Assembly: GCA_028683955.1 (NCBI GenBank)
Contig: JAQUGR010000010.1
Location: 1 to 45,300, forward strand
Source: Bacillota bacterium
Lineage (GTDB): Bacteria; Bacillota; TC1
Length of the DNA stretch: 45,300 bases
Direction: 5' to 3'
The notes beneath the pieces were generated by a model. It was not told the origin of the DNA and made no database searches. It worked only from the letters and a program-made list of their open reading frames with translations. Numbering within the stretch: the stretch's first letter is position 1; each line of letters begins with the position of its first letter. Positions 6,843 to 22,388 of the stretch are shown piece after piece. The position numbers and the translations under genes were made by a program.

Positions 6843-7808
6843 ATGGAATTTCCAAGTATTGAATTTAATAAAAATAAGGTTACAACAACCAATTGCTATA
6901 AAAACATAGATTTATTATCTGAAATAAATAGTAAGGCCGATAATAGCAAGTATTCACCTAAAGTAGAACAAACATATGGTAGATTATCTTTTCCTGATGG
7001 AAATGAGTATCCATATTCTTTCGCTTCGATAGCTTTATCAATGGATGGGAAAATGGCATATCCAGAAAGACCTGAAGGACCGTTAGTTGCTATATCAAAC
7101 AGGCTGAATCCAGATGGAGCTTTAACAGACTTTTATATTTTGAATTTTTTGAGAGCATATAGCGATATTATAATTCAAGGGAGTAATACACTAAAAGCAG
7201 AAGAAGATTTATGGAATGTTGTATTTGACAAAGATCTAGTTGAAGAACGAATAAAATATCTTGGTAAAAAAACAGAGCATCCTGGCACTGTTATAATTAC
7301 CCTTGATGGTACGGATATACCATTAGATCATCAGCTATTCAGCCAAAACAAACTACCATTATGTATATTTACAACAACTAGAGGAGCAGAATACCTAGAA
7401 GCAAAAGGAAATGGTAAATTCAAACACGTTTTGAATCTTGTAGAAGGAAATAGTGATATTGGGGTTAAGATGAAAGTGATTTTAAAGGAAGTAAGTAATA
7501 TAATCCCAGTTATAAGTGCTGATAAAGGAAATGCAACGGATCTTAAGCTATTTATGAAGAGTTTAAAATTAGGTGGAGTTAATCAAGCAATTGTTGAATC
7601 ACCTACAATAACTTGGCTATTAATGAAAGAAAAAATAATGAATGAGTATTTCTTAACACATACAAGTGTATTTATTGGTGGCCAATTAAGCCCGGGATGG
7701 AATATGCCTTTTAGTTACGATAATCATCCACATGCAGAAATTTTACAAATTAATAACCATAAATCGTCATTTATTTATACTAGGCAAGCTATAAAGTATG
7801 ATAAATAA
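6843..7808 (+). CDS. RibD C-terminal / DHFR-fold reductase-like protein
   Basis: A 321-residue protein with the dihydrofolate-reductase-like RibD_C fold but no deaminase domain. An N-terminal extension of about 65 residues precedes the core. Family marks are FASIALSMDGKMA (about residue 60-72), the AISNRLNPDGALTDF segment, the nucleotide-loop region around IIQGSNTLKAEEDLW, and AIVESPTITWLLMKEKIMNEYFLTH followed by VFIGGQ, which mirrors the VEGGPTL...VDE...APxLxGG end of RibD_C. Known relatives reduce diaminopyrimidine or dihydropterin-type substrates with NAD(P)H. It opens the accessory cluster, has a strong AGGAGG site, and is separated by 115 bp from the amidohydrolase, which has its own promoter. 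The substrate is unknown; it is probably not riboflavin biosynthetic, since no rib genes are near. Confidence 0.78.
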   Translation: MEFPSIEFNKNKVTTTNCYKNIDLLSEINSKADNSKYSPKVEQTYGRLSFPDGNEYPYSFASIALSMDGKMAYPERPEGPLVAISNRLNPDGALTDFYILNFLRAYSDIIIQGSNTLKAEEDLWNVVFDKDLVEERIKYLGKKTEHPGTVIITLDGTDIPLDHQLFSQNKLPLCIFTTTRGAEYLEAKGNGKFKHVLNLVEGNSDIGVKMKVILKEVSNIIPVISADKGNATDLKLFMKSLKLGGVNQAIVESPTITWLLMKEKIMNEYFLTHTSVFIGGQLSPGWNMPFSYDNHPHAEILQINNHKSSFIYTRQAIKYDK

Positions 7809-7923: not shown

Positions 7924-9321
7924 ATGATTAAGGTTGATTTAATAATTAAAAATATAATGATTGTTACAGTTAATGAAAAAAGAGAACTTATAAATAATGG
8001 ACTAGTGGCTATTAAAGGTCAAAAATTTGTAGCCGTTGGAAAAACAGAAGAACTTGAAACTAAATACGAAGCTGATAAAGTAATAGATGGAGAAGGTAAA
8101 GCTCTTTTTCCAGGGTTTATAAGCTTACATAGTCATTTATTCCAAAATTCTTTAAAAGGATTAGGAAGAGATAAAAGTTTATTTGATTGGTTAGATGCAT
8201 CAGTTAGAAAAGCCTATGGCTTTATAGATTATAATCTTATTCTTGCCGCAGCTACTGCAGGTTGTTTAGAGAATTTGAATACAGGTGCAACCACAATTCT
8301 AGATTACCAATATTGCCACGCCCATGAAATGGGTCTAGACAATGCGGTTGTTGAAGCATTCAAGCGAACAGGCATAAGAGGGATATTAGGCAGAGGACAT
8401 ACAAAAGTAGTTAATTACCCAGGCTTACCACCTTGTCCTATTGATGAAACAGAAGATATGTTTTTTGCAGATGTTGATCGTCTGCTTGATGAATTAAAAG
8501 ATGAAGAACGTATCTCTCTTGCCTTAGCTCCTGGAATTATCTGGGACTTGAGCGAAGAAGGCTTTAAAAAGTGTGCAGAATATTCAGAAAAATATAATAT
8601 GAATGTTACCATGCATACTTTAGAATCTGGTGATGATGATGCTTTTTCAATTGAAAAGTATGGTAAAACTACAATGGAATTTCTAGAATCAACAGGAGTA
8701 TTATCCAATCGTTTTATAGCAGTACATTGTGTACAAATGAATGAAAGCGATTTCAATATATTTAAGAAACATGAATTAAATGTTTGTCATTGTCCAATGT
8801 CTAATATGATTCTTGGTAGCGGTTTTGCACCAGTACCAAGAATGATAAAGGAAGGCTTGAATGTAGGACTTGGGGCTGATGGTTCAGCTAGCAGTGATAC
8901 TCAAAGCTATTTAGAACAACTAAAAGCGGCATCTCTAGTACATAAAGGGAATCTTAAAGATCCTACTGTAATGCCTGCTGAATTAGTGATAGAGATGGCA
9001 ACTATAAATGGAGCAAAAGCTCTAGGGTTGTCCGATAAAATTGGTTCAATTGAAGTTGGCAAACTTGCAGATTGCTTTATTTTTACACCACATACATTGT
9101 CTTCATGTCCGGTTGCTGATCCGATAGCTGCTATTGTATATTCGTCAGAACCAGACAATATTGAAACAGTTATAGTTGGTGGTGAAATAGTAAAAGAAAA
9201 CAATATATTAATAAAATGGTCTAAGGACGATGCAATAAAAGATTTGGTTGAAAGAGCCAAAGACTTAAGAGAAACTGTTTCTTTAGAAGAAACAAAATGG
9301 GGCCAAATTTCATCACTATAA
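7924..9321 (+). CDS. COG0402 amidohydrolase / aminohydrolase (guanine- or pterin-deaminase-like)
   Basis: A 465-residue metal-dependent deaminase of the amidohydrolase superfamily (SsnA / TRZ-ATZ / SAH-deaminase branch). A small beta-sandwich surrounds a TIM barrel. Metal and catalytic residues are visible: His69-x-His71 (LHSHLFQ), His231 and Glu234 (MHTLE), His268 (AVHCVQ), and Asp319 (GLGADGSASSD). Family members deaminate guanine, 8-oxoguanine, isoxanthopterin, cytosine, SAH or triazines, so a ring C-NH2 or C-Cl substrate is likely, but the exact one cannot be read from the sequence. It has its own -10 box and operator-like palindrome and is followed by the BMP transporter genes. The ribosome site is GAAAGGAAAG. 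Confidence 0.9.
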   Translation: MIKVDLIIKNIMIVTVNEKRELINNGLVAIKGQKFVAVGKTEELETKYEADKVIDGEGKALFPGFISLHSHLFQNSLKGLGRDKSLFDWLDASVRKAYGFIDYNLILAAATAGCLENLNTGATTILDYQYCHAHEMGLDNAVVEAFKRTGIRGILGRGHTKVVNYPGLPPCPIDETEDMFFADVDRLLDELKDEERISLALAPGIIWDLSEEGFKKCAEYSEKYNMNVTMHTLESGDDDAFSIEKYGKTTMEFLESTGVLSNRFIAVHCVQMNESDFNIFKKHELNVCHCPMSNMILGSGFAPVPRMIKEGLNVGLGADGSASSDTQSYLEQLKAASLVHKGNLKDPTVMPAELVIEMATINGAKALGLSDKIGSIEVGKLADCFIFTPHTLSSCPVADPIAAIVYSSEPDNIETVIVGGEIVKENNILIKWSKDDAIKDLVERAKDLRETVSLEETKWGQISSL

Positions 9322-9432: not shown

Positions 9433-10482
9433 ATGAAAAAAATTATTTCCCTATTACTTGTTCTATTAGCAGGCTTAATGGTTACTGCTTGTAGCGGAAG
9501 TGACACAAAGACAGAAACCCTAAAAGCTGCTTTGTTAACTGGTGGACCAGTTAATGACGGTGGTTGGAACCAAATGGCTTATGAAGGCCTAATGGGACTA
9601 GAAGACATTGGCTATGAAGTGAGCAATACTGAAAATGTTCAACAAGATGGCCAAAAACAAGCACTTCAAGCTTATTGTGATCAAGGCTATAACTTAGTTA
9701 TAGGTCATGGTTATGAGTGGGGCGATGCTTTAACAGAAATGGCTAACAAATACCCAGACATTAAATTCTTGCAAATTGGCGGGAATGCTGGTGGTAAAGT
9801 TCCTAACTTAACATCAGGTGAGTTCAAATCTTACGAACTAGGTTATATTGGTGGTAAAATTGCCGCTGCTACAACTACAACTAAAAAATTCGGATTTATT
9901 GGAGCTGCAAAAATACCTACATTAATTGCTGAAATTACAGCTATTAAAGGCGCTATCAAAGATTCTGATCCTACAATAACAGTAGCAGAAATTTATACTG
10001 GTAGCTGGACAGATGTTGCTGCTGGTAAAAAAGCTGCAGAACAAATGATAAATCAAGGTATTGATACTATTTTAGGAATTGGTGATGCATGCGATGCTGG
10101 TGCTATTCAAGCAATTGATGAAGCTAATGCTGCAGGCAAAGATGTTAAATTTATTGGTTGGACTGGTGATTTCTACAGTGCTTACCAAAAAGACTTTATT
10201 GTTACTTCATGTATACAAGATGTACAAGGCGTAATTAAAACAATTGGTCAAGAAGTTAAAGATGATAAATTTGTTTCAAGATACTGGTTACCAGATGTTG
10301 CATCAGGAATGCTACACATTGGTGAATGGTCACCAACAGCTACAGATGCTCAAAAAGCAGCTGGAGAAGCAGCTGTTCAAGACATAAAAGACGGTAAAGT
10401 TACACCTAGATCAATATTTGATCTTGCTGGTGTACCTGCTAGTGAATACTATGATGCACAAGAATTAGTTTATTCAAAATAA
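9433..10482 (+). CDS. BMP-family ABC transporter substrate-binding lipoprotein
   Basis: A 349-residue extracytoplasmic solute receptor. The signal peptide ends in a lipobox (VTAC) with the lipid-anchored Cys20. The mature part has the BMP/PnrA/Med family features: GGPVNDGGWNQMAYEGL near the N-terminus, IGHGYEWGDALTEMA, the GFIGAAKIPT hinge segment, and GIGDACDAGAIQAIDEA. Characterised relatives bind purine nucleosides (TmpC/PnrA) or riboflavin (RfuA), so the ligand is probably a nucleoside-like heterocycle. The strong AAAGGAGGAAAG ribosome site and the downstream hairpin suggest higher expression than the rest of the transporter, as usual for binding proteins. Confidence 0.93.
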   Translation: MKKIISLLLVLLAGLMVTACSGSDTKTETLKAALLTGGPVNDGGWNQMAYEGLMGLEDIGYEVSNTENVQQDGQKQALQAYCDQGYNLVIGHGYEWGDALTEMANKYPDIKFLQIGGNAGGKVPNLTSGEFKSYELGYIGGKIAAATTTTKKFGFIGAAKIPTLIAEITAIKGAIKDSDPTITVAEIYTGSWTDVAAGKKAAEQMINQGIDTILGIGDACDAGAIQAIDEANAAGKDVKFIGWTGDFYSAYQKDFIVTSCIQDVQGVIKTIGQEVKDDKFVSRYWLPDVASGMLHIGEWSPTATDAQKAAGEAAVQDIKDGKVTPRSIFDLAGVPASEYYDAQELVYSK

Positions 10483-10542: not shown

Positions 10543-12066
10543 ATGGAAACTGTTTTAAAGGTTGAAAACCTATCTAAAATATTTCCAAAAGTTGTAGCTA
10601 ACGATAATGTATCCTTTGATTTAAAAAAGGGCGAAATTGTTGCGATACTAGGAGAAAATGGTGCTGGTAAAAGCACTCTTATGAACTGTCTATATGGAAT
10701 TTATCATCCAACAAAGGGCGATATTTATATTAAAGGTGAAAAAGTTAAATTAACAAAAATTGAAGATGCAGAAGCATTAGGTATAGGGATGGTTCACCAA
10801 CACTTTATGTTGGTTGAAGACCTTACGGTTGCTGAAAATATAATTTTAGGCAGAAAAACTGGAATTACACCATATTTAGATTTAAAAAAAGTTGAAAAAG
10901 CTGTTAAAGAACTATCTGATAGATATAATTTTGGTTTAAATCCAAAATCTAAAATTAAAGATTTATCTGTAGGGACTAGACAGAGAGTAGAAATTTTAAA
11001 AATGTTATATAGAAATGCTGATATTTTAATTCTTGATGAGGCAACAGCAGTTCTTACACCACAAGAAACTGTGGAACTATTTAAAACTTTAAAACATTTT
11101 GTTGATGAAGGCAAATCTATTTTAATGATTACTCATAAACTTGAAGAAGTTATGGAATTAGCAGATAGAGTAGTAGTTTTAATTGATGGTAAAATGGCTG
11201 GATCAGTTAATAGGGTTGATACAAACCCTAGACAATTAGCGAATATGATGGTTGGTCGAGACGTTCTAATGGATTTTGATATCAAACCGGTTGTTCATGA
11301 CAATTTGATCTTACAGGTTAAAAACCTGACTGTAAAAAACAACCATGGACTAGAAAAAATTAAAAATTTATCTTTCGAAATAAAACAAGGCGAAATATTA
11401 GGAGTTGCCGGAGTTGATGGTAACGGACAAGCGGAGCTAGCAGAAGCCTTAACCGGCTTAATGAAAATTGACAAAGGTGAGATAGTAATAGGCGAAAAGG
11501 TGTTTACACACTTGAAACCTAAGATGATATATGAACAAGGAATGTCTCATATTCCTCAAGATAGACATGAAAGAGGATTGGTTCTAGATATGACAGTAAA
11601 TGAAAATCTAGCATTGGAAGGCATATCACATGTTCCTTTTAGTTACAATGGAATTATTGATTTCAAGTATATAAAAAGTCACGGTAAAGCAATGATAAAA
11701 GATTATAATATTAAATGCTATGATGGTTCTTGTCCAACAAAGGAATTATCTGGTGGCAATCAACAAAAAGTAATTGTAGCTAGAGAAATTGATAGAAAAC
11801 CTAATATAATTATAGCAGTCCAACCAACTAGAGGTCTGGATATTGGTGCTACAGAATTTGTTAGAAATAAACTATTAGAAGAAAAAGAACGAGGCGCAGC
11901 AGTATTACTTATTTCTACAGAATTAGAAGAAATATTGATGGTTTCAAATAGGATAGCTGTTATTCATGAAGGAGAATTTATGGGAGTTATCGATAATAAA
12001 AATGTAGATATTCTTGAATTAGGATTAATGATGACTGGTATGAGGGGGGATAAGGATGAAAAATAG
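10543..12066 (+). CDS. BMP-type ABC transporter ATP-binding protein (two fused ATPase domains)
   Basis: A 507-residue protein with two ATPase halves, like YufO/NupA and sugar RbsA-type ATPases. The first domain (about 1-235) has Walker A GENGAGKST, signature LSVGTRQRVEIL, and Walker B ILILDEATAVLTP. The second (about 250-500) has the degenerate Walker A GVDGNGQAEL, signature LSGGNQQKVIVARE, and IIAVQPTRGLDIGA in place of Walker B, all normal for this family. It energises uptake by the two following permeases. Its 3' end overlaps the first permease gene by 11 bases. Confidence 0.94.
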   Translation: METVLKVENLSKIFPKVVANDNVSFDLKKGEIVAILGENGAGKSTLMNCLYGIYHPTKGDIYIKGEKVKLTKIEDAEALGIGMVHQHFMLVEDLTVAENIILGRKTGITPYLDLKKVEKAVKELSDRYNFGLNPKSKIKDLSVGTRQRVEILKMLYRNADILILDEATAVLTPQETVELFKTLKHFVDEGKSILMITHKLEEVMELADRVVVLIDGKMAGSVNRVDTNPRQLANMMVGRDVLMDFDIKPVVHDNLILQVKNLTVKNNHGLEKIKNLSFEIKQGEILGVAGVDGNGQAELAEALTGLMKIDKGEIVIGEKVFTHLKPKMIYEQGMSHIPQDRHERGLVLDMTVNENLALEGISHVPFSYNGIIDFKYIKSHGKAMIKDYNIKCYDGSCPTKELSGGNQQKVIVAREIDRKPNIIIAVQPTRGLDIGATEFVRNKLLEEKERGAAVLLISTELEEILMVSNRIAVIHEGEFMGVIDNKNVDILELGLMMTGMRGDKDEK

Positions 12067-13162
12067 AGAAAATATTATCGCTCCAATATTTGGTCTGGTT
12101 GTAGGTATTCTAGTTTCAAGTTTATTGCTAATAATGTGGGGATCTAGCCCGCTAAAAGCATTTGAAGGACTTTATATAGGGTCATTTGGTACTTTAGGAG
12201 CTATATCAAACACACTAATAAAAGCCATCCCATTAATTATTGGTGGATTGGCAGTAATAATATCCTACAAGTCAGGTATCTTTAATGTTGGGGTAGAAGG
12301 ACAATTATTCTTTGGAGCTATGGGTGGTGCTGTTATTGCAACATTACCAATGTTTCAAGATTTACCTCCATTCATTTCAATACCATTATCAATAGTTGTT
12401 GCTATGATGTTTGGTGCAATACTAGGTTTTATTCCAGGTTATTTAAAAGCATATAGGGGAATAAACGAAGTTGTAGTTACCATGTTATTAAACTATATAA
12501 TTATATTCTTTTTAAGCCAACAAGTTCAACCTGGAGGATTTTTGCATGAACCAGGTGTTACAGCAAATCAATCAGCATATATACATGAAGGTATGAAATT
12601 ACCTTTGTTATTTAGTGGTGTGTTAACTAAGGTTCACATTGGTTTAATAATAGCTATAGTACTTGTTGTTATTGTATGGTTTGTTATGTCTAGATCATCT
12701 ATTGGCTTTAAGATGAAAGCTATTGGATTAAATCCAAAAGCTGCCCAATATGCAGGGATGAATATGAATTTCATACAAACTAATGTAATGATAGTAAGTG
12801 GTGCTATGGCTGGATTAGCCGGTGCTATTGAACTATTAGGTTATCACTATAGATTGGTAGAAAATTTCTCTCTTGGAATTGGATATAATGCAATAGCAGT
12901 AGCTCTCTTGGCTAACTTAAGCCCTATTGGTGTTGTACTTTCAGCAATTTTCTTTGGTGCCTTACAGGCAGGCAGTATTACAATGCAAATAGTTGCTGAT
13001 GTACCGGAGTCATTTACTAAACTGGTACAAGGTATTGTAGTTTTCTTTGTAATTGCCGGTGCAGTATTGCCAAAGATAATAAATAAAAAATTAACTATGA
13101 ATAGATTGGCAAAAGAAGCTCTTGAAGCTAATCAATTAGAGGAGGGTCAAGAAGATGCTTAA
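12056..13162 (+). CDS. ABC transporter permease (BPD_transp_2, nucleoside/riboflavin type), subunit 1
   Basis: A 368-residue integral membrane protein of the LivH/RbsC-type permease family, related to YufP/NupB. It has about 9-10 hydrophobic helices, the motif FNVGVEGQLFFGAMGG near residue 75, RGINEVVVTMLLNYI in the middle, and the EAA-like segment FKMKAIGLNPKAAQYAGMN with the following helices. The C-terminus is a charged cytoplasmic tail (EEGQEDA). It overlaps the ATPase gene by 11 bases and the second permease by 8 bases, so translation of the transporter is tightly coupled. Confidence 0.93.
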   Translation: MKNRENIIAPIFGLVVGILVSSLLLIMWGSSPLKAFEGLYIGSFGTLGAISNTLIKAIPLIIGGLAVIISYKSGIFNVGVEGQLFFGAMGGAVIATLPMFQDLPPFISIPLSIVVAMMFGAILGFIPGYLKAYRGINEVVVTMLLNYIIIFFLSQQVQPGGFLHEPGVTANQSAYIHEGMKLPLLFSGVLTKVHIGLIIAIVLVVIVWFVMSRSSIGFKMKAIGLNPKAAQYAGMNMNFIQTNVMIVSGAMAGLAGAIELLGYHYRLVENFSLGIGYNAIAVALLANLSPIGVVLSAIFFGALQAGSITMQIVADVPESFTKLVQGIVVFFVIAGAVLPKIINKKLTMNRLAKEALEANQLEEGQEDA

Positions 13163-14069
13163 TGCAATAATTTTATTTATATTAAGTGGATTGGTTATGG
13201 GTACACCTTTATTGATTATGAGCATGGGTGGAGTAATAACTGAAAGAAGTGGAACTCTTAATCTAGGACTTGAAGGAACTATGTTAACTGGAGCATTTTT
13301 TTCTTACTATTTTGCTATAACAACAGGAAGTGTTTGGTTAGGACTACTAGGTGGTATAGCTGGTGGACTTGTTATAGCTTTATTCCATGGTATAGCAATG
13401 ATTTACTGGAATACAAATCAGGTAGTAACAGCTGTTGCAATAAATATGGCAGCGCTTGGTATTACCAATACTTTGATGGGAAAATTCAGTATGACTACCT
13501 CAGCTGGTAATAACATTTCACCTGGATTTGAACCTCTATTTAAAATTAACCTTGGTGAAGCTATTATTGGTGTTAACTGGTTTTTTATTTTAGCACTTAT
13601 AATGATTCCACTAACTTGGTTTGTGATTCAAAAAACCACTATAGGTTTGGCTATAAGAGCAGTAGGAGAATATCCTACAGCAGCAGCAACTATGGGAATT
13701 AGAGTTAGAAGAGTAAGAATGTTATGTTTTCTTTATAGTGGAGCAATAGCAGCTTTAGCTGGTGCAGCCCTAACTATTGGTGATGTAAGGGTTTTTGTAA
13801 ACAACATGACAGCTGGTAAAGGTTTTATCGCTTTTGCTTGTATAGTATTTGGCCGTTATACTGCTATGGGAACAGCTTTTGGAGCATTGGTATTTGGTAT
13901 ATCAGAAGCTTTTAGAAACTACATTCAGATATTTGCTTGGTCTATTCCAGGTGGATATATGACCTCAATTATGATACCTTATATAATTACTTTATTATTA
14001 TTGATATTTTCTAAACAAGGAAATGCTCCTAAAGCATGGGCTATACCTTATGAGGGTGATGATAATTAA
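13155..14069 (+). CDS. ABC transporter permease (BPD_transp_2, nucleoside/riboflavin type), subunit 2
   Basis: A 304-residue membrane protein with about 8-9 helices, paired with the preceding permease (YufQ/NupC-like). Family marks are ITERSGTLNLGLEGTMLTGA near residue 30 and AIRAVGEYPTAAATMGIRV in the cytoplasmic coupling loop. The ribosome site GAGGAGGGTCAAG lies inside the end of the upstream gene. The lipoate-ligase-like gene starts 3 bp after its stop, tying the transporter transcriptionally to the catabolic genes. Confidence 0.93.
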   Translation: MLNAIILFILSGLVMGTPLLIMSMGGVITERSGTLNLGLEGTMLTGAFFSYYFAITTGSVWLGLLGGIAGGLVIALFHGIAMIYWNTNQVVTAVAINMAALGITNTLMGKFSMTTSAGNNISPGFEPLFKINLGEAIIGVNWFFILALIMIPLTWFVIQKTTIGLAIRAVGEYPTAAATMGIRVRRVRMLCFLYSGAIAALAGAALTIGDVRVFVNNMTAGKGFIAFACIVFGRYTAMGTAFGALVFGISEAFRNYIQIFAWSIPGGYMTSIMIPYIITLLLLIFSKQGNAPKAWAIPYEGDDN

Positions 14070-14071
14070 TT

Positions 14072-14716
14072 ATGAAAATAGAGAAATTCCCGGAATATAT
14101 TTTAGATGGATATATTAAGGAAAAACTAATTCATGAAGATATGTTTATCAATATTGAATATCAGAACAATACTTCTGTTGTATTAGGCAGAGTAACACCT
14201 CATACAAGTGATGTTAACTCGGAAAATTGTAAAACTGATAATATTTCGATATTTAGACGAAAAGGTGGAGGAGGCGCAGTCCTCCTTTTCCCTGGAGTTA
14301 CTATTATTAGCTGTAGCTTTAAAAAAGATCACAGAGTTGTAGACTTAATGAAATGCCTAGATGTTGCTGTGGAGAAAATTAAAGAAGGAATACTAAATTA
14401 TATACAGATACCTCTTGAAATTAGAGGTAATGGAGATTTATGTATTGAAGATAAAAAAATACTAGGTTCTAGTATATATAGTACAAAGGAATATATTACA
14501 TATTATTGTACTCTTATTATAAGAGGGAATATTAATTCTATTTCAAAATATCTTACCCATCCTTCTAAGGAACCTGATTATAGAAAAGGTAGAAGTCATG
14601 AAAATTTTATTACTACGATTGAAGCAAATGCAAAAATTAATAATGATAATGAACTATTCACTTCAATTAGAAAGTCTTTAGAGACTATTAAAATAAAAGA
14701 CATTTACCTAGATTAA
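14072..14716 (+). CDS. short lipoate-protein ligase / octanoyltransferase family protein
   Basis: A 214-residue BPL/LplA/LipB-fold protein that probably attaches lipoate or octanoate to the E2 subunit encoded downstream. It shows the RRKGGGGAV ligand-loop motif (62-70) and the catalytic-type Lys129 in EDKKILGSS. It lacks the C-terminal accessory domain of full LplA (about 330 residues), as in short ligases and octanoyltransferases. The position where LplA usually has HGTLL reads YYCTLII with Cys146; LipM and LipL use a catalytic Cys in this fold, but I cannot confirm that this Cys aligns with theirs. The gene is 3 bp after the permease and 21 bp before the regulator. Confidence 0.8.
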   Translation: MKIEKFPEYILDGYIKEKLIHEDMFINIEYQNNTSVVLGRVTPHTSDVNSENCKTDNISIFRRKGGGGAVLLFPGVTIISCSFKKDHRVVDLMKCLDVAVEKIKEGILNYIQIPLEIRGNGDLCIEDKKILGSSIYSTKEYITYYCTLIIRGNINSISKYLTHPSKEPDYRKGRSHENFITTIEANAKINNDNELFTSIRKSLETIKIKDIYLD

Positions 14717-14737: not shown

Positions 14738-15394
14738 ATGGTTAAGAAATTTATGACAAAAACAGAATTTGCTTATAATGAGATAAAAGATAAAATTGGT
14801 CAAGGAATATATAAAATACATAATCTTTACACAATTGTTGATGTAGCTAATGAAATAGGAGTTAGTAGAACACCTGTAAGTGGGGCAATAAAAATTCTTG
14901 AATCTGAAGGATATGTAACTATATATCCAGGAGTAGGATTTAGGATAAAAGACTTATCACTTAGTGAAATTAAAGAAAGTTTATTGATTTCTGGCGCATT
15001 AGAAATAGTTGCTATGGATTATATTATTGACAGTAATATGATTTCTGAGAGTAAAAAAAGATTATGTAATGAGTATGTTGAAAATAGTATGAAAGCAATC
15101 AAAACTAGAGATGGTAAAAGCTATGTTGAATGCGCTGATAGATACCATGAAGTTCTATATGACATGGTAGATTTACCTAGTGTAAAAAATATATTAGCGG
15201 ATCATACATTCCTTCATAAATCCTTATATATAGAAGGAGTTAATAAATTTCCTGATGATGCTAATGAACTTGCAATAGATCATTTAAAAATTTTAGAAGC
15301 TATAATTGAAAAAAATAAGAAAAAAATCAGAGATGTTATTGAGGAACATGAACTCCATTGTTATATAATATTGGAGAAAGTTCTAGAAAGTTAG
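14738..15394 (+). CDS. GntR-family transcriptional regulator (FCD/FadR subfamily)
   Basis: A 218-residue one-component regulator. The winged-helix domain (about 8-75) contains IVDVANEIGVSRTPVSGAIKILESEGYV. The ligand-binding FCD domain (about 85-215) is all-helical and keeps the likely metal-binding pattern: Asp/His in CADRYHEVLY, His in IDHLKILEAI and His in EEHELHCY. Such regulators usually sense an organic acid or a pathway intermediate and repress their own cluster. The gene lies inside the operon. The 18-bp palindrome at 7889-7906 is the best candidate operator. The ligand is unknown. Confidence 0.9.
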   Translation: MVKKFMTKTEFAYNEIKDKIGQGIYKIHNLYTIVDVANEIGVSRTPVSGAIKILESEGYVTIYPGVGFRIKDLSLSEIKESLLISGALEIVAMDYIIDSNMISESKKRLCNEYVENSMKAIKTRDGKSYVECADRYHEVLYDMVDLPSVKNILADHTFLHKSLYIEGVNKFPDDANELAIDHLKILEAIIEKNKKKIRDVIEEHELHCYIILEKVLES

Positions 15395-15401
15395 GTGTAA
15401 A

Positions 15402-16133
15402 ATGAGAAGATTTGAAAACAAAGTAGCAATAGTAACTGGAGCAGCAAGAGGGCTAGGCGCACAGTATGCAACTGATTTAGCAAATGAAGGTGCAACAGTT
15501 GCCTTAATAGACATGGATGTTAATGGACTAGAGAACATGAAAAAAACTATAGAAGCAGCTGGTGGAAAAGCTTTAATTTATAAGGTTGATGTTAGTAATG
15601 CCAAAGCTGTAAAAGATTGCGTAGATGATATTGTAAAAACCGCAGGTGGTGTGGATATATTAATTAACAATGCAGCCTATTACAAAGGACAACCAGTGGT
15701 AGAAACATCTGTTGAAGATTGGGAGAAACAAATAAATATCAATTTAAATGGAACGTTCTACTTCACGAAAGCAGTTATACCATATATGCTAGAAAAGAAA
15801 TATGGAAAAGTATTAAATATTGCTTCAGCTGGAGCAAAAGTATTCTTCCCTGGTTTTGCAGCATATGGTGCTTCAAAAGGAGGTATAATAACCTTCTCAA
15901 ATATTCTTTCAGAAGAAGTTAAATACGATAACATTAATGTTAATTCAATATATTTAGGAATGGTAAACACAGAAAAAACTAGAGAAAGAATTGATTCAGA
16001 TTCTGCAGTGGTAATTCCTTTAGAGGAAATGTTACAACCACCAGAAGTATCAAAAGTAGTTCTTTTCTTGGTTTCTGACGATGCTGCTCCAATCAAAGGT
16101 GCTGCAATCGATGTATTCGGCAACAGATATTAG
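15402..16133 (+). CDS. short-chain dehydrogenase/reductase (SDR)
   Basis: A 243-residue classical SDR that oxidises or reduces an alcohol/ketone with NAD(P). Visible marks are the cofactor loop TGAARGLG (12-19), Asp37/Asp39 after the second strand (LIDMD; acidic, favouring NAD over NADP), NNAA (89-92), and the catalytic Ser142, Tyr155 and Lys159 (YGASK). Length is normal. It follows the regulator by 7 bp and precedes the first Mch-like gene by 13 bp. In this setting it may oxidise a hydroxyl on the substrate's side chain before cleavage by the E1 component; this is inference. Confidence 0.92.
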   Translation: MRRFENKVAIVTGAARGLGAQYATDLANEGATVALIDMDVNGLENMKKTIEAAGGKALIYKVDVSNAKAVKDCVDDIVKTAGGVDILINNAAYYKGQPVVETSVEDWEKQININLNGTFYFTKAVIPYMLEKKYGKVLNIASAGAKVFFPGFAAYGASKGGIITFSNILSEEVKYDNINVNSIYLGMVNTEKTRERIDSDSAVVIPLEEMLQPPEVSKVVLFLVSDDAAPIKGAAIDVFGNRY

Positions 16134-16145
16134 GGGGATAAGATA

Positions 16146-17108
16146 ATGGCTTTAAGCATTAACAAGGAGGCTATGAAAGTAGTCAGAGCAATGATAGAAG
16201 ATAGTGAAAAAATTGGTGTTAAAGTTGTTAATATGGATTGTGGTGCAACTTTAATTGATTGTGGATTAGAAGCTAAAGGCTCATATGAAGCAGGGATTAT
16301 GTTCACAAAAGTTACAATGGGTAATACTGGTACAGTTCAATTAAGTACTTGGAAACTTGATGATGATATATCATTTAGTGCAGTTGAACTATTTGTAACA
16401 GAACCACTAATTACATGCTTGGGATCACAAATTGCTGGTTGGCAGTTAGGTGAAGGAAACTTTGCAACAATAGGTTCAGGACCGGCTCGAGCACAAGCTG
16501 TAGTTCCAACAGACATGTATTTAGATATGACACCTTATAGAGATAGAAATGATGAAGTTGTTTTATGCATACAAGATATAAAATATCCGTCAGATGAAAT
16601 AGCTAAAGAAGTGGCTGCAGCATGTAAAGTAGATGTTAAAGATGTATATCTTCTACTAGCACCTAGTGCTTGCATAGTTGGTAGCGTTCAAGTGGCAGCA
16701 AGGCTTTTAGAGCAAGTATGTCACAAAATGCATGAAAAAGGTTTTGAAGTAAGCAGTGTTGTAAATTGTAGAGGTATTGCACCTATAGCACCATTAGTAA
16801 ATGATGAAATAAAAGCTATGGGTAGAATTAATGATGCAATTTTATATGGTGGATCAACAGAGTTTTGGGTAGATGCAGATGATGTAGAATGTCAAAAAGT
16901 AGTTCATCAACTAGTTTCAAGTACTTCATCACCTTATTATCCAGAACCATTTGCTAAAGTATTTGAAGATTGTGGTTGTGACTTCTATAAAGTTGATCAT
17001 GATTTTCATTCAATTGCTCGAATTCAGCTGCAAAGCGTAAGATCCGGAAAGTGTTTTACAGCTGGTGAGATAAATAAAGAAGTTATTAGAAAAAGCTTCT
17101 TAAATTAG
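16146..17108 (+). CDS. methenyl-tetrahydromethanopterin cyclohydrolase family protein (Mch-like 1)
   Basis: 320 residues, the normal Mch length, and similar from end to end to archaeal Mch. Recognisable blocks are GATLIDCGLEAKGSYEAG (33-50), SQIAGW (94-99), the GSGPARA motif (110-116), LLLAPSACIVGSVQVAARLLEQ with Arg186 and Glu189 (the R-x-x-E pair corresponds to residues implicated in archaeal Mch catalysis), IAPIAPL, KAMGRINDAILYGGST and DFYKVDHDFHSIAR. Mch opens the methenyl bridge of a tetrahydropterin cofactor by adding water. No other methanopterin-pathway gene is nearby, so the true substrate is probably different. The gene lies directly before the E1-E2 genes. AAGGAGG is absent here; the weak site is GGGGATAAG. 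Confidence 0.88.
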   Translation: MALSINKEAMKVVRAMIEDSEKIGVKVVNMDCGATLIDCGLEAKGSYEAGIMFTKVTMGNTGTVQLSTWKLDDDISFSAVELFVTEPLITCLGSQIAGWQLGEGNFATIGSGPARAQAVVPTDMYLDMTPYRDRNDEVVLCIQDIKYPSDEIAKEVAAACKVDVKDVYLLLAPSACIVGSVQVAARLLEQVCHKMHEKGFEVSSVVNCRGIAPIAPLVNDEIKAMGRINDAILYGGSTEFWVDADDVECQKVVHQLVSSTSSPYYPEPFAKVFEDCGCDFYKVDHDFHSIARIQLQSVRSGKCFTAGEINKEVIRKSFLN

Positions 17109-17124
17109 AAAGGAGGATGTAATA

Positions 17125-18111
17125 ATGGCATTAAGTAAAGAACATCTATTAAAAGTTTACGAGGACATGTTGCTTATACGACGTTTTGAAGAAGAAGTTG
17201 AAGTATATGCAAAAAATGGAACTATACCAGGATTTATACATTTGAGCATTGGACAAGAAGCAGCACAAGCTGGGGTTGTCGATGTTTTAAAAGATACAGA
17301 CTACAAGTTCCCAGATCACAGAGGACACGGTGCAATCGTGTTATCAAGCAAACCTGAGGAAAGAAAAAGATGCATGTCAGAAATTTTCGCTAAGGCGACT
17401 GGAATCAATGGAGGTAGAGGTGGAAGTATGCACGTTCACGATCTATCAGTTAGAAACATGGGATTCAATGGCATTCAAGGCTCTACAGTTGTTACAGCTT
17501 TAGGTACAGCCTTTAATTCTGTTTATAGAAAAAATGATGATGTAACTGTAGTATTTATGGGTGATGGTACTCTAGGTGAAGGAACATGTCACGAGAGTCT
17601 TAACATGTCTGCTACCTGGAAGTTGCCTTTAGTTTATGTATTGATTAATAATCAATATGCTATATCTACTCACTACACAGAAGCTCATCCACAAAAACAA
17701 TTATCAACTTGGGGATTAGGTTATGAAGTTCCTAGTATGACAATTGATGGAAATGATATTGAAGAAGTAATTGAAGTTACACAACAAGCAGTTGACAGAG
17801 CTAGACGTGGTGAAGGTCCAACACTAATTGAAATGATGTCTTATAGATGGCAAGGTCACTTTTCAGGAGACCCTGCAGCATATAGACCAGATGGAGAATT
17901 AGAAGCTTGGAAGGAAAAAGATCCTTTAAAACTTGCTAAAGAAAAACTACAAGAAAAACATGGAGTAAGTGATGCTGAAATTCAAGCTATTTCTGATAGA
18001 GTTGAAGTTGAAATTGCTGAATATGTTAAGTTCTCATTAGAGTCTCCAGTTCCAAAACCTGAAGACGCAGTTAAATATGTGTATACTGACAGAGAAGTGG
18101 AGGGAAGATAA
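17125..18111 (+). CDS. E1-alpha of a thiamine-diphosphate 2-oxoacid/acetoin dehydrogenase
   Basis: A 328-residue alpha subunit like AcoA/PdhA. The ThDP-Mg motif runs from GDGTLGEG (146-153) to INNQYAIST (174-182). HRGHGA and GGRGGSMHVHD are typical of this family, closer to acetoin dehydrogenase in the HRGHG segment. With the beta subunit it decarboxylates or cleaves a 2-oxo or alpha-hydroxyketone substrate and transfers the acyl unit to E2 lipoate. The ATG follows AAAGGAGG. Its last base overlaps the first base of the beta gene (TAATG). Substrate cannot be assigned: the flanking Mch paralogues argue against plain pyruvate or acetoin. Confidence 0.92.
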   Translation: MALSKEHLLKVYEDMLLIRRFEEEVEVYAKNGTIPGFIHLSIGQEAAQAGVVDVLKDTDYKFPDHRGHGAIVLSSKPEERKRCMSEIFAKATGINGGRGGSMHVHDLSVRNMGFNGIQGSTVVTALGTAFNSVYRKNDDVTVVFMGDGTLGEGTCHESLNMSATWKLPLVYVLINNQYAISTHYTEAHPQKQLSTWGLGYEVPSMTIDGNDIEEVIEVTQQAVDRARRGEGPTLIEMMSYRWQGHFSGDPAAYRPDGELEAWKEKDPLKLAKEKLQEKHGVSDAEIQAISDRVEVEIAEYVKFSLESPVPKPEDAVKYVYTDREVEGR

Positions 18112-19088
18112 TGGCTAGAATAATATCATTTAGCAAGGCTCTTAACGAAGCTATGACACAAGAAATGGAACGTGATGAAAACGTTTTTATATTAGGAGAA
18201 GATGTTGCCAAAATGGGTGGCGATTTCGGTATTACAACAGGAATTTGGGAAAGATGGCCAAATAGGGCTTTTGATACAGCTTTATCAGAGTCTGCAATTA
18301 CAGGTTTATGTTGTGGTGCAAGCGTTTGCGGTCTTAGACCAGTAGCTGAATTAATGTTCGCTGATTTTATAACAGTATGTTATGATCAGTTAGTAAATAA
18401 TGCAGCTAAATTAAACTATATGTACCAAGGTGAGGCTAGTGCTCAAATGGTTGTTAGAGCAGTAACTGGTGGTGGCATAAGATGTGCTTATCATCATTCA
18501 CAATGTATTGAGCCATGGTTGATGAATATACCTGGTCTAGTAATTGTGGCACCAGCAACTCCATACGAAGCTAAAGGTTTATTAGTTGCTTCTATTAGAA
18601 ATAATAACCCTGTTGTGTTCTTAGAACATAAACACTTATATAACGTAAAAGGTGAAGTTCCTGAAGAACTATATGAAATACCTCTATATGAGGCTCATGT
18701 TGAAAGAGAAGGTACGGACATCACTATAGTTGCAGCAATGAGCATGTTGAAATTCGCTCAAAAAGCAGCTGATGAAATGGCCGCTAAAGGAATTTCAGTT
18801 GAAATTATTAATCCAAGAACAATTTTCCCATTAGACAAAGAAACAATTAAAGAGTCAGTTGCTAAAACTGGTAGATTGATTGTAGTTCAAGAAGGTCCTA
18901 AAGTAATGGGTTATGGTGCTGAGATTGGTGCTATGTTAGGTGAAGAATTATTCGAATATCTAAAAGCGCCTATCAAAAGAGTAACTTCTCTTGATACACC
19001 AGTACCTTTTGCTCCAGGAATGGAAGATTATGTCTTGCCACATTATGAGGATGTAATTACAGCTTGTAATGAAGTAATGGCATATTAA
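18111..19088 (+). CDS. E1-beta of a 2-oxoacid/acetoin dehydrogenase
   Basis: A 325-residue beta subunit like AcoB/PdhB, with a pyrimidine-binding half and a transketolase C-terminal half. Marks are LGEDVAKMGGDFG (28-40), DTALSESAI in place of the common DTPISE, CAYHHSQCIEPWLMNIPGL with the conserved HHSQ, and NPRTIFPLD followed by VVQEGP. It forms the alpha2-beta2 E1 with the upstream gene (stop-start overlap TAATG). Two Cys residues in GLCCGASVCGLRP are a local peculiarity. The next gene (E2) begins 12 bp after its stop behind AAGGAGGAAATTG. Confidence 0.92.
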   Translation: MARIISFSKALNEAMTQEMERDENVFILGEDVAKMGGDFGITTGIWERWPNRAFDTALSESAITGLCCGASVCGLRPVAELMFADFITVCYDQLVNNAAKLNYMYQGEASAQMVVRAVTGGGIRCAYHHSQCIEPWLMNIPGLVIVAPATPYEAKGLLVASIRNNNPVVFLEHKHLYNVKGEVPEELYEIPLYEAHVEREGTDITIVAAMSMLKFAQKAADEMAAKGISVEIINPRTIFPLDKETIKESVAKTGRLIVVQEGPKVMGYGAEIGAMLGEELFEYLKAPIKRVTSLDTPVPFAPGMEDYVLPHYEDVITACNEVMAY

Positions 19089-19100
19089 GGAGGAAATTGT

Positions 19101-20597
19101 ATGTCTACAATAATCGAAATGCCTCGTTATGGGGCTAACATGGATGAAGGGACTATTGCTACTTGGCTTGTTACAGAGGGAGAATCAGTAACAAAAGGTC
19201 AGGCAATTGCTGAAATAGCGATTGAAAAATTAAGCAACGAGCTTCTTGCGCCTGAAGATGGAGTGATTTTAAAATTAGTAGGTACTGAGGGTGAAACATA
19301 TGATTGTGGAACTACTATTGCCTATATAGGACAAGCAGGTGAAAATGTTGAAGAATCTACATCAGTAGAAATTGAAACATCTAATGCTGCTGATACCATA
19401 GAATTATCTAGTGATGCAACTATAATAGTTATGCCTAGATATGGTGCTAACATGGAAGAAGGCACTGTTTCAACTTGGTTCTTCTCAGATGGAGATATGG
19501 TTGAAGAAGGTGATGTTATCGCTGAAATTTCAATCGAAAAGCTTACAAATGAATTGTTGTCTCCAACTGCTGGACCTTTTTATCCTTTAGTTGATGAAGG
19601 TTCTACTGTTAAATGTGGAAAGACAATCGCTAAAATAGGTGAAGGTGATGTTGCTGAAGAAGGTGAAGTTGTTTCAAAATGTTCTCCTAGCGAAATGGAT
19701 GATGTAATAACTGGCAAGAAAGAAACTGTTTCAGTTTCTGCAGATTCTGTTGAAACGGTCACTTCTGGCTGTTCAGAACTTACACCTAAAGCTAAGAAAT
19801 TAGCTGATGAACTAGGGGTAGACGCCACGATGTTAAAAGGTACAGGTTATTGCAATATGGTTACCAGAGAAGATATTAAAAAAGCTAATGCTGCTGGTGC
19901 TTTAAGCAAAGCTGGCTCAACATCAGTTCCTATTAATAGAAAAATGACTGCTATGGAAAAAGCTATTGCGGCTGGAATGTACAAAAGTTTGCAAGAAACA
20001 GCACAAACTACTATTACTATGGATATGGATGTTGATAATTTAGTAGCCTTCTATAAGGCTAACAAAACAGATTATGCAGCTATGGGAGTTAAACTAAGTT
20101 ATACTTCAGTTATTATAAACATTGTTGGAAAAGCTTTGAAAGAGTATCCAATTATGAGAACAATTATTGATGGTGATATGTTTAAAGAACTTACTGAGAT
20201 TAATATTGGCATTGCAGTAGATATTGCTGGCGGACTTGTTGTTCCTAACATTAAAAATGCCGACAAGAAATTCTACTCAGCGGTTGCTACAGAACTTGCA
20301 GAATTAGCTAACAAGGCTAAAACTGGTAAGTTATTAGAAAATGATTTGATAGGTGGATCTTTTACAATTACTAATCTTGGAATGTTTGGAATCAAATATT
20401 TCACTCCAGTATTAAATATTGGGGAAAGTGCTATTTTGGGACTTGGAGCAATAAGAAAAGAACTAGTAGCTAAAAAAGGTGGTTTTTTGAAAAAGAAATA
20501 TATGTCATTTAGCTTAACACATGATCACAGAGTGATTAACGGTGCACCAGCTGCTCGTTTTCTAAATAGAATACAAGAATTAATTAACGAATTATAG
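19101..20597 (+). CDS. E2 dihydrolipoamide acyltransferase with two lipoyl domains
   Basis: A 498-residue E2. Two similar lipoyl domains (about 1-78 and 106-182) carry the lipoate lysines Lys43 and Lys147 in IEKLSNEL and IEKLTNEL. A Ser/Glu-rich linker leads to a peripheral-subunit-binding domain (about 225-262, LTPKAKKLADELGV). The acyltransferase core spans about 275-498 and contains SFTITNLGMFG. Its catalytic motif HxxxDG reads HRVING: His476 is kept but the Asp is Asn480. Asp normally supports the catalytic His region, so activity may be altered, though HRVxNG variants do occur among E2-like proteins as far as I recall. No E3 gene follows; the second Mch-like gene starts 7 bp later. Confidence 0.93.
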   Translation: MSTIIEMPRYGANMDEGTIATWLVTEGESVTKGQAIAEIAIEKLSNELLAPEDGVILKLVGTEGETYDCGTTIAYIGQAGENVEESTSVEIETSNAADTIELSSDATIIVMPRYGANMEEGTVSTWFFSDGDMVEEGDVIAEISIEKLTNELLSPTAGPFYPLVDEGSTVKCGKTIAKIGEGDVAEEGEVVSKCSPSEMDDVITGKKETVSVSADSVETVTSGCSELTPKAKKLADELGVDATMLKGTGYCNMVTREDIKKANAAGALSKAGSTSVPINRKMTAMEKAIAAGMYKSLQETAQTTITMDMDVDNLVAFYKANKTDYAAMGVKLSYTSVIINIVGKALKEYPIMRTIIDGDMFKELTEINIGIAVDIAGGLVVPNIKNADKKFYSAVATELAELANKAKTGKLLENDLIGGSFTITNLGMFGIKYFTPVLNIGESAILGLGAIRKELVAKKGGFLKKKYMSFSLTHDHRVINGAPAARFLNRIQELINEL

Positions 20598-20604
20598 GTG
20601 GAAC

Positions 20605-21582
20605 ATGATTAGTTTAAACAACAACGTAAAAAGAAAATTACAAATATTATTAGATAATTATGAAGCATTATCATGTAAAAGCTACAAGTTGCCTTGCGGG
20701 GCAAATATAATTGATATGGGCGTAGAGGCTAAAGGAAGCTTTGAAGCAGCTAGATTGTTTACTGAAATAAACATGGCAGACCTTGGTACTGTAACCTATA
20801 GAGATTATGTTTTAGAAGATGGACACAGCTGTTTAGCAGTTGAGGTTATGACCTCGGAGCCTATTTTGGCTCTGAGGTATAGCCAGATAGCATCTTACCC
20901 AATTGGTGATGGTATGATTGGTTCAGGACCAGGTAGAGCTGTTGCTAGAAATAAGGAAGATTATTGTTTTGATATTCCTGACAGCTACACAGATACTGAA
21001 GCTGAATTAGTTGTACTTGGTGTCCAAGGTCCTAAAATACCAGATGATAAAGTAGCTCTAAAGATAGCAGCAGAATGTAATATGAGTCCTGATAAAATCT
21101 ATTTATTAGTTCATAATAATACATCAATAGTAGCTGCTGTTCAAGTAGCAGCGAGGATCTTAGAACAAACTTTACATAAAATTATGATGCAAGAAGAAGA
21201 GAGCATTGAGTATGCCTTGGAATTTGCAAGAGGGTTTGCATTAGTTGCACCTGTCACACTTGATGATGACGAAGCAATGGGTAAAATTAACGATTCACTC
21301 CTTTATGGAGGTAGATCACAATATTGGGTTAAATGTAATAGTGATGAGGAAATCACTAGAATATTACCTAAATTAGTAACAGAATATTCAAAGGACTATG
21401 GTAGATCATTTAGGGAGCTGTATTTAGAAGCAGATAGAACATACTATAAAATGGATTTAAATATTCATTCACCTGCTAGAGTTGAAATTTTCAATATGAA
21501 TACAGGTAATATTTTCTCACAAGGAAGTATTAGGGAAGACATTATCTCCAGTAGCTTCTTTAAGAACAGAAGGAAGGTATAG
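20605..21582 (+). CDS. methenyl-tetrahydromethanopterin cyclohydrolase family protein (Mch-like 2, diverged)
   Basis: 325 residues; a paralogue of the protein encoded at 16146-17108. Shared blocks are GANIIDMGVEAKGSFEAA (32-49), SQIASY (93-98, where the first copy has SQIAGW), GSGPGRA (106-112), LLVHNNTSIVAAVQVAARILEQ with the Arg184/Glu187 pair kept, KINDSLLYGGRS and YYKMDLNIHSPAR. The LLLAPS segment of the first copy is LLVHNN here, and GSGPARA has become GSGPGRA, so the pocket differs. The two may act on successive intermediates or form a hetero-oligomer. It sits between E2 and the iron-sulfur flavoprotein gene, with 7-bp and 2-bp spacers. Confidence 0.85.
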   Translation: MISLNNNVKRKLQILLDNYEALSCKSYKLPCGANIIDMGVEAKGSFEAARLFTEINMADLGTVTYRDYVLEDGHSCLAVEVMTSEPILALRYSQIASYPIGDGMIGSGPGRAVARNKEDYCFDIPDSYTDTEAELVVLGVQGPKIPDDKVALKIAAECNMSPDKIYLLVHNNTSIVAAVQVAARILEQTLHKIMMQEEESIEYALEFARGFALVAPVTLDDDEAMGKINDSLLYGGRSQYWVKCNSDEEITRILPKLVTEYSKDYGRSFRELYLEADRTYYKMDLNIHSPARVEIFNMNTGNIFSQGSIREDIISSSFFKNRRKV

Positions 21583-21584
21583 TA

Positions 21585-22199
21585 ATGAAAGCAATAGGAA
21601 TTTGCGGGAGTACCAGAAAAAATGGTACAGATTTCGCGGTGAGACGTGCTCTAGAAATACTAGAAAAGGAGTATGGTGTAGAAACTACTTATTTTACAGT
21701 TAGAGGAAAGAAAATCAATATGTGTATACATTGTAATGATTGTGTTAGAAAAAATGCTAAGACGTGTACAATATATACTGATGATATTTCACATATTAAT
21801 GAAGAATTTTTATCAAGTGATGTAATAATTCTAGGATCTCCTATTTTTGAAATGGGTATGTCACCTCAAATGAGTGCGATTTTAAGTAGAACTAGATGTA
21901 ATTACAATGTATTAAAAGAAAATCCAAATGTATTCTATGATAAATTAGGTATGGCAATTGCTGTTGGAGGTGCAAGAAATGGTGGTCAAGAAATGACTAT
22001 CAATTCACTTCATGGTTTTTTTCATACAAATGGTATAATTCCGATTGGAGCTTCAATGGGAGTATATGCTGGAGCTGGGATTTGGAGTAAAGATACCGTG
22101 CCTTTCACTGAAGAAGTTGATGAATATGGAATTAAAAATCTTGATACATTAACTAGAAAATTAGGGGAAACTCTAAAACTTATTAAAGGCATAAAATAA
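21585..22199 (+). CDS. iron-sulfur flavoprotein (Isf) / NADPH-dependent FMN reductase family
   Basis: A 204-residue flavodoxin-fold electron carrier or reductase. The N-terminal FMN loop is GICGSTRKNGTDF (5-17). The compact cluster motif CX2CX2CX7C (Cys47, 50, 53, 61; CIHCNDCVRKNAKTC) matches the Isf family described from methanogenic archaea, which holds one 4Fe-4S cluster and FMN. LGSPIFEMGMSPQMSAILSR and VGGARNGGQE are further family blocks. It ends the operon. With no E3 gene in the cluster it could take part in reoxidising lipoamide or pass electrons from a ring reduction; both are inference. It starts 2 bp after the second Mch-like gene. Confidence 0.88.
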   Translation: MKAIGICGSTRKNGTDFAVRRALEILEKEYGVETTYFTVRGKKINMCIHCNDCVRKNAKTCTIYTDDISHINEEFLSSDVIILGSPIFEMGMSPQMSAILSRTRCNYNVLKENPNVFYDKLGMAIAVGGARNGGQEMTINSLHGFFHTNGIIPIGASMGVYAGAGIWSKDTVPFTEEVDEYGIKNLDTLTRKLGETLKLIKGIK

Positions 22200-22345: not shown

Positions 22346-22388
22346 AAATAAGGATTGACCATATTTGGTCAATCCTTATTTGTTTTTT
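22346..22388 (+). terminator. intrinsic terminator at the end of the accessory cluster
   Basis: A perfect 16-bp stem (22346-22361 with 22366-22381, arms AAATAAGGATTGACCA and its complement) with a TATT loop, followed by TTTTTT at 22383-22388. It separates the cluster from polA. Confidence 0.93.

Follow-up and report, generated by a model that had tools for sequence, protein, structure and literature searches.

Mch-family genes around a lipoyl-dependent dehydrogenase

The window, a 45,300-nucleotide stretch of a Bacillota genome (contig JAQUGR010000010.1 of assembly GCA_028683955.1), carries two genes for proteins of the methenyl-tetrahydromethanopterin (methenyl-H4MPT) cyclohydrolase (Mch) family, placed on either side of the genes for a lipoyl-dependent dehydrogenase complex. 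Mch1 (16146..17108), E1-alpha (17125..18111), E1-beta (18111..19088), E2 (19101..20597) and Mch2 (20605..21582) follow one another on the + strand, separated in turn by 16 bp, a 1-bp overlap, 12 bp and 7 bp. Both Mch proteins matched PF02289 over the full profile (E 1.1e-105 for Mch1 and 7e-77 for Mch2; Pfam), and both exceeded the 228.8-bit cut-off of the NCBIfam model TIGR03120, Mch1 with 331 bits and Mch2 barely, with 232.7. No other PF02289 gene occurs in the genome, which spans 1.59 Mb and is 98.4% complete. An earlier reading of this DNA from its letters alone (the sequence-only reading) had described full-length Mch paralogues flanking E1-alpha, E1-beta and E2 with spacers of a few bases, a description that was borne out; the motifs it quoted (GSGPARA/GSGPGRA, SQIA, R-x-x-E and IND-x-x-LYGG) are present in the translations. 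The structure prediction that it proposed gave an AlphaFold model of Mch2 with a mean predicted local distance difference test score (pLDDT) of 91.9, which superimposed on the Mch structure 1QLM with template modelling (TM) scores of 0.91-0.94; at E <= 0.001, the PDB structures matched by this model were Mch entries alone.

E1-alpha, the thiamine diphosphate (ThDP) subunit, matched PF00676 (E 6e-74) and scored 310 bits against a pyruvate dehydrogenase model, under the cut-off of 394; its HRGHG motif is kept in 9/9 homologues. E1-beta matched PF02779 and PF02780, and E2 is an acyltransferase that combines two lipoyl domains with an E3-binding domain (PF00198, PF00364 twice, PF02817), its lipoyl lysines sitting in IAIEKL and ISIEKL. 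With E3 encoded elsewhere in the window genome (G000:C5:1185-2555), the dehydrogenase complex has all of its components, E1 and E2 in the operon and E3 in trans. Since the genome also carries pyruvate:ferredoxin oxidoreductase, E1/E2 are not needed for pyruvate. Immediately ahead of Mch1 lies a short-chain dehydrogenase (SDR) gene (15402..16133, +; PF00106, E 2.9e-55), the product of which has the YxxxK motif and scored 166 bits against a meso-2,3-butanediol dehydrogenase model, under the cut-off of 270. At the end of E2 (window positions 20520-20597) the usual DHRxxDG reads DHRVING; homologues from the same order also have NG, and those of genomes G083 and G158 have DG. In G006, G007 and G008 (loci L048, L025 and L024) an E3 gene lies ~9-11 kb upstream of the operon, with an AcsE-type methyltransferase gene between the two, as in a Wood-Ljungdahl cluster.

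We surveyed 398 genomes of the phylum Bacillota for PF02289 and found it in 25. The order SDR-Mch-E1-alpha-E1-beta-E2-Mch recurs at six further loci, two from the same genus (L021, L022), three from a second family of the order (L024, L025, L048) and one from beyond the order (L053, from G083), which excludes a chance arrangement and confirms that gene order is conserved in relatives. These relatives are Bacillota metagenome-assembled genomes, one of them filed as Fusobacteria, so that the earlier label 'Clostridium-like' was only roughly right. In G158 (L058) the order is E2-E1-beta-E1-alpha-Mch-LipB-like-RibD_C-deaminase, accompanied by energy-coupling factor (ECF) ATPases, the LipB-like call being made by eye from sequence. 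Some sister loci hold Mch paralogues without E1/E2, and G158 has a single Mch with E1/E2. The proposed pairing, with Mch acting just before and just after acyl transfer to lipoate, is thus not general; the window shows one variant among several of a broader system. In G005, a sister genus within the same family, the cluster has decayed to a pseudogene string (G005:C1:1194800-1202000; L066 2827-9904) in which the genes for SDR, GntR, LplA, a single permease, the solute-binding protein, the deaminase, RibD_C and Mch1 follow one another, broken by frameshifts and stop codons, including a TAG within Mch1. Since RibD_C adjoins Mch1 there, in a different order, the gene linkage is independent of any one arrangement. 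Additional relatives of G083, G239 and G055 yielded no further genomes with Mch.

An SDR beside E1/E2 recalls butanediol and acetoin catabolism, and E1 is ~43% identical to plasmid E1 proteins that have no neighboring Mch, although the plasmid neighborhoods of the best E1 matches held no pointer to a substrate. We nevertheless consider it highly improbable that this is an operon of the usual kind for acetoin or 2-oxoacid dehydrogenase in which the Mch copies are misplaced or functionless, since Mch flanks E1/E2 in independent families with its catalytic residues intact.

Two kinds of Mch in Bacillota

Phylogenetic analysis divided the Mch sequences in two with 100/100 support: 3 archaeal and 11 Bacillota Mch (most from H4MPT loci) form one clade, while 27 type II rows, which include both window paralogues, form the other. 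H4MPT loci encode Ftr together with subunits of formylmethanofuran dehydrogenase and, in many cases, MptA or MptN; type II loci encode an importer and often a deaminase and a flavin mononucleotide (FMN) reductase. Within type II, clades A (window Mch1), B (window Mch2), C and D were supported at 100/99 or 100/100 each, A and B at 100/99. A fifth group, clade E, comprises short, fast-evolving copies directly after D and was excluded from the second tree. L059 (G160) has a BMP importer beside Mch, yet its Mch falls in the H4MPT clade, and it was not counted as type II.

Arg183 and Glu186 (A. fulgidus numbering), which we take to be the catalytic pair of Mch, show no variation in the archaeal and H4MPT sets or in clades A to D; position 186 is the one mutated to Gln in 4GVR and 4GVS, as seen in PDB alignments. 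Other positions differ by clade, with Phe280 replaced by His in A, B and C, Ala169 by His in B, and Pro277 by His in A and Leu in B. The whole-profile match, the Mch fold and the Arg183 and Glu186 equivalents in clades A and B place the window proteins in the Mch family. Taken as an equivalog model for functional methenyl-H4MPT cyclohydrolase, TIGR03120 is satisfied by score, but the proteins neither group with Mch of the H4MPT pathway nor share their genome with Ftr. No Ftr candidate was found in the window genome (G000) or its tested congeners G001 and G004, and the window genome therefore has no H4MPT pathway. The sequence-only reading had named two findings that would count against it, a full H4MPT pathway with these copies inside its normal Mch clade and a gene order shared with no relative; neither turned up. 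Taken together, these results indicate that the Mch-E1/E2-Mch arrangement is real, conserved and not explained by the H4MPT pathway.

Clade E copies, of 240-271 aa, have lost Glu186 in 5/5 cases, Arg183 in 4/5 and part of the C-terminal region. Each lies directly after a clade D Mch (L052 8722-9537; L053 14668-15390; L056 9965-10723; L062 9897-10703; L065 8558-9337), and on the basis of these losses clade E may be a non-catalytic (pseudoenzyme) partner of clade D. H4MPT one-carbon (C1) operons, with formylmethanofuran dehydrogenase subunits, Ftr, Mch and often MptA- or MptN-like genes, occur in several Bacillota families (L043, L044, L047, L063, L064, L067).

Operon content and candidate substrates

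The operon is larger than the sequence-only reading had it, running from ~6843 to a terminator-like stem at 22346-22381 in the order reductase, COG0402 deaminase, BMP-type importer, lipoate ligase, regulator, SDR, Mch1, E1/E2, Mch2, flavin reductase, terminator. All features lie on the + strand, and the genes upstream of Mch1 are tightly spaced. The first encodes a RibD_C/DHFR-fold reductase-like protein (6843..7808; PF01872, E 6e-10), the gene for which adjoins that of the deaminase in L021, L022 and L058; an AlphaFold model from a four-sequence input was poor (pLDDT 44) and was left unused. A COG0402-type amidohydrolase of the N-heterocycle deaminase kind follows (7924..9321; PF01979, E 5.5e-63), and then a BMP/PnrA-type solute-binding lipoprotein (9433..10482; PF02608, E 9e-39), among whose structure matches is the atrazine-binding 6PI5. 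The remainder of the importer consists of a BMP-type ATP-binding cassette (ABC) transporter ATPase (10543..12066), of a family common to sister Mch loci, and two ABC permeases (12056..13162 and 13155..14069) assigned from reading frame and sister-locus comparison. A lipoate-protein ligase-like protein (14072..14716; PF21948, E 1.7e-22), whose position inside the operon fits a dedicated E1/E2 complex, and a GntR/FCD-type regulator (14738..15394; PF00392, PF07729) precede the SDR. Downstream of Mch2 are a flavodoxin-fold FMN reductase-like protein (21585..22199; PF03358, E 4.5e-22), found also in importer-bearing sister Mch loci, and the stem-loop (22346..22381; 16-bp stem, 4-nt loop, T-run), which by pattern match resembles an intrinsic terminator and is the probable operon end.

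Cyclohydrolase, deaminase and RibD_C reductase together recall riboflavin synthesis, and by such logic Mch, the RibD_C protein and the amidohydrolase could serve in making a modified pterin or flavin-like cofactor. This we regard as very unlikely. The presence of ABC and ECF importers within these operons and of GntR/LacI-type regulators points to an accessory catabolic trait, as do the decay of the G005 cluster and the absence of Mch from G002 and G003 (drafts of 76-79% completeness).

The deaminase bears on which compound might be catabolized. Its nearest solved structures are methylthioadenosine/S-adenosylhomocysteine and 8-oxoguanine deaminases, and it has the COG0402-type fold and candidate metal-ligand motifs (HSH69, H231/E234, H268 and D318) that a pterin deaminase should have; we propose that it may act as a pteridine 2-amino deaminase. 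Models for 5'-deoxyadenosine, 8-oxoguanine and TRZ/ATZ deaminases matched it about equally, all under cut-off. The COG0402 family includes guanine and 8-oxoguanine deaminases, purine nucleosides are known substrates of BMP-type importers, and formamidine hydrolysis is the chemistry nearest to that of Mch. A purine, allowed by deaminase family and importer type, is thus the main competing substrate: in purine or nucleoside catabolism the Mch paralogues would open the formamidine carbons (C8 or C2) in the manner of GTP cyclohydrolases, the deaminase would act on a guanine-like ring, and E1/E2 would take a sugar-derived or amino-keto fragment. We consider this unlikely, given the content of the sister loci.

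Four clade D/E loci (L052, L056, L062, L065) encode FolB, of which the copy tested, from L062, scored 98 bits against TIGR00525 (cut-off 72). In E. coli FolB, Glu73 binds the pterin N3-H and 2-NH2 (PMC4176595), and the substrate-binding Glu of FolB is strictly conserved (PMC9937910). In 4/4 cluster FolBs it is replaced by Gln. The Glu is kept in four comparison FolBs, namely those of L047 and L071 (G088), the FolB-FolK fusion encoded separately in the window genome (which thus has folK) and the G118 copy beside folK; G118 carries one FolB of each type. The catalytic Glu, Lys and stacking Tyr appear retained in the alignment of cluster FolBs. Because of the Gln, their substrate is expected to carry an oxo group in place of the 2-amino group, fitting prior action of a deaminase; one of the right superfamily is present in three of the four FolB loci, and the fourth has a cytosine-deaminase-like gene. 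A FolB with aldolase residues points, against the purine alternative, to a pteridine bearing a polyol side chain. Clade D/E Mch has FolB as a neighbor in four genomes; in G083 its neighbors are SDR-E1-E2, with no FolB, and G118, of the same family as G083, has the FolB form. We infer from this exchange that SDR plus E1/E2 stands in for FolB in side-chain cleavage; by analogy, a 1',2'-diol side chain would be chemically akin to the butanediol/acetoin-type substrates of SDR, ThDP-E1 and lipoyl-E2.

The clade C loci L049 and L050 contain an ECF importer, an M20 amidohydrolase (AbgB-like by eye, with a match at subfamily level only), a ThiO-like flavin adenine dinucleotide-dependent oxidoreductase and a MeTr-type pterin enzyme, and appear to resemble folate breakdown. 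MeTr-type and M20 amidohydrolase genes, like the Pterin_bind protein of one locus with an Ftr-like gene (L082), suit pterins better than purines.

Divergent Ftr-like proteins, below the TIGR03119 cut-off, are encoded in G006, G009, G055, G083 and G158. In the four neighborhoods read (genes at L082 8877-9752, L078 9007-9933, L080 3362-4228 and L081 8733-9617) they lie beside a second COG0402 amidohydrolase and a zinc-dependent alcohol dehydrogenase, in most cases near ECF transporter, FGGY kinase and DeoC-type aldolase genes. These clusters look like a further case in which an enzyme of the H4MPT pathway was put to new use. The occurrence of Ftr-like proteins away from the Mch clusters in the same genomes, MeTr-type proteins adjoining clade C Mch and the retained Mch catalytic residues would also accord with stripping of C1 units from scavenged folates or methanopterins, in which Mch opens methenyl bridges while MeTr-like and Ftr-like proteins remove methyl and formyl groups before salvage. 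Such stripping leaves E1/E2, the SDR and two to four diverged Mch copies unexplained, and the window genome has no Ftr-like gene; we therefore view it as quite unlikely.

Several observations weigh against a pteridine substrate. The window locus itself lacks FolB, so that the pteridine argument is transferred from sister loci sharing the Mch group, and within the stretch read of L024, L025 and L048 there is no deaminase or importer. BMP-type binding proteins have nucleosides and other heterocycles among their ligands as well, and the parity of the deaminase models under cut-off makes a purine substrate possible. An Rfam scan of the window and 15 sister loci found no tetrahydrofolate or other folate-related riboswitch; its sole match was a purine riboswitch (L062 3488-3589), ~5.3 kb from the L062 Mch. 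Finally, all activities in the pathway are predicted from sequence.

A candidate pathway and its relation to known systems

Balancing these points, we give about even credence to the view that the operon serves the uptake and degradation of a pteridine, reduced or oxidised, whose side chain bears hydroxyl groups (neopterin-, monapterin- or biopterin-like). The pteridine would enter via the BMP-type ABC transporter, its redox state would be adjusted by the RibD_C-type and flavin reductases, and the COG0402 amidohydrolase would remove the 2-amino group to give a lumazine-level ring. The SDR would then oxidise a side-chain alcohol to an alpha-hydroxyketone, unless the ketone arises on ring opening; ThDP-E1 would cut the C-C bond in the manner of acetoin dehydrogenase, and lipoyl-E2 would deliver an acyl-CoA, with E3 acting in trans. 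Mch1 and Mch2, through their Arg/Glu water-activating pair, would cleave the reduced pteridine hydrolytically at C-N bonds, N5 being the most plausible site (e.g. N5=C6), with one paralogue acting before and the other after acyl transfer. Water addition to a C-N bond near N5 would be a natural extension of the known Mch reaction. The pteridine itself, and deamination ahead of side-chain cleavage, we infer; the sequence of reactions, the particular bonds that Mch1 and Mch2 would break, how the two paralogues share the work and the identity of the acyl group are speculative. The main inference of the sequence-only reading, that the Mch fold was reused on an N-heterocycle around a lipoyl-dependent step, stands, and the deaminase, the importer, the RibD_C-type reductase and sister-locus FolB strengthen the case for such reuse. 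A small imidazoline is a less likely substrate than a reduced pteridine, a kind of compound that Mch already binds.

The neighboring genes suggest that these Mch relatives help to dismantle pterins by an undescribed route. Still more tentatively, there may be an undescribed pathway of anaerobic Bacillota in which a pteridine is imported and deaminated, its side chain is turned into acyl-CoA by a dedicated lipoyl complex and its ring is opened by Mch paralogues, with related clusters reusing an Ftr-like formyltransferase. Consistent with the sequence-only reading, which knew of no such pathway, the open-licence literature yielded none pairing Mch with a lipoyl dehydrogenase and none for anaerobic pterin breakdown, which is weak evidence of absence. 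The mch gene is used to mark the tetrahydromethanopterin C1 pathway, and four clades with intact catalytic residues fall outside it while the NCBI model gives them the name of the H4MPT enzyme. Should the pterin reading be right, these are genes for anaerobic pterin breakdown, and C1-pathway enzymes have been recruited to dismantle the type of molecule that was formerly their carbon carrier.

Compared with methenyl-H4MPT cyclohydrolase (1QLM, 4GVQ and 4FIO, the last being the Mch of Methanobrevibacter ruminantium), the window proteins share the fold, the full length and the Arg183/Glu186 pair. They differ in their separate clade, a genome without the H4MPT pathway, a catabolic-looking context, several paralogues per operon and the His substitutions at Phe280 (A, B, C) and Ala169 (B). 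In the acetoin dehydrogenase system (ThDP-E1, lipoyl-E2 and butanediol dehydrogenase), an alpha-hydroxyketone would be handled as by the SDR, ThDP-E1 and lipoyl-E2 described here, whereas the window E1/E2 are linked to Mch, a deaminase and an importer, lack an annotated acetoin function and, in the window and its order, have NG for the catalytic DG of E2. Variovorax sp. F1 degrades folate and pterin by means of a pterin deaminase and carboxypeptidase G (PMC9513972). There, too, a cyclic amidine deaminase acts on the pterin 2-amino group, but the organism is a soil isolate for which Mch, FolB and E1/E2 were not reported and ring opening was not shown. Lastly, FolB is proposed to cut the C6 side chain in sister loci, as SDR plus E1/E2 would here, although by other chemistry and to another product, a free aldehyde rather than an acyl-CoA, and with Gln in the cluster FolBs in place of the substrate-binding Glu.

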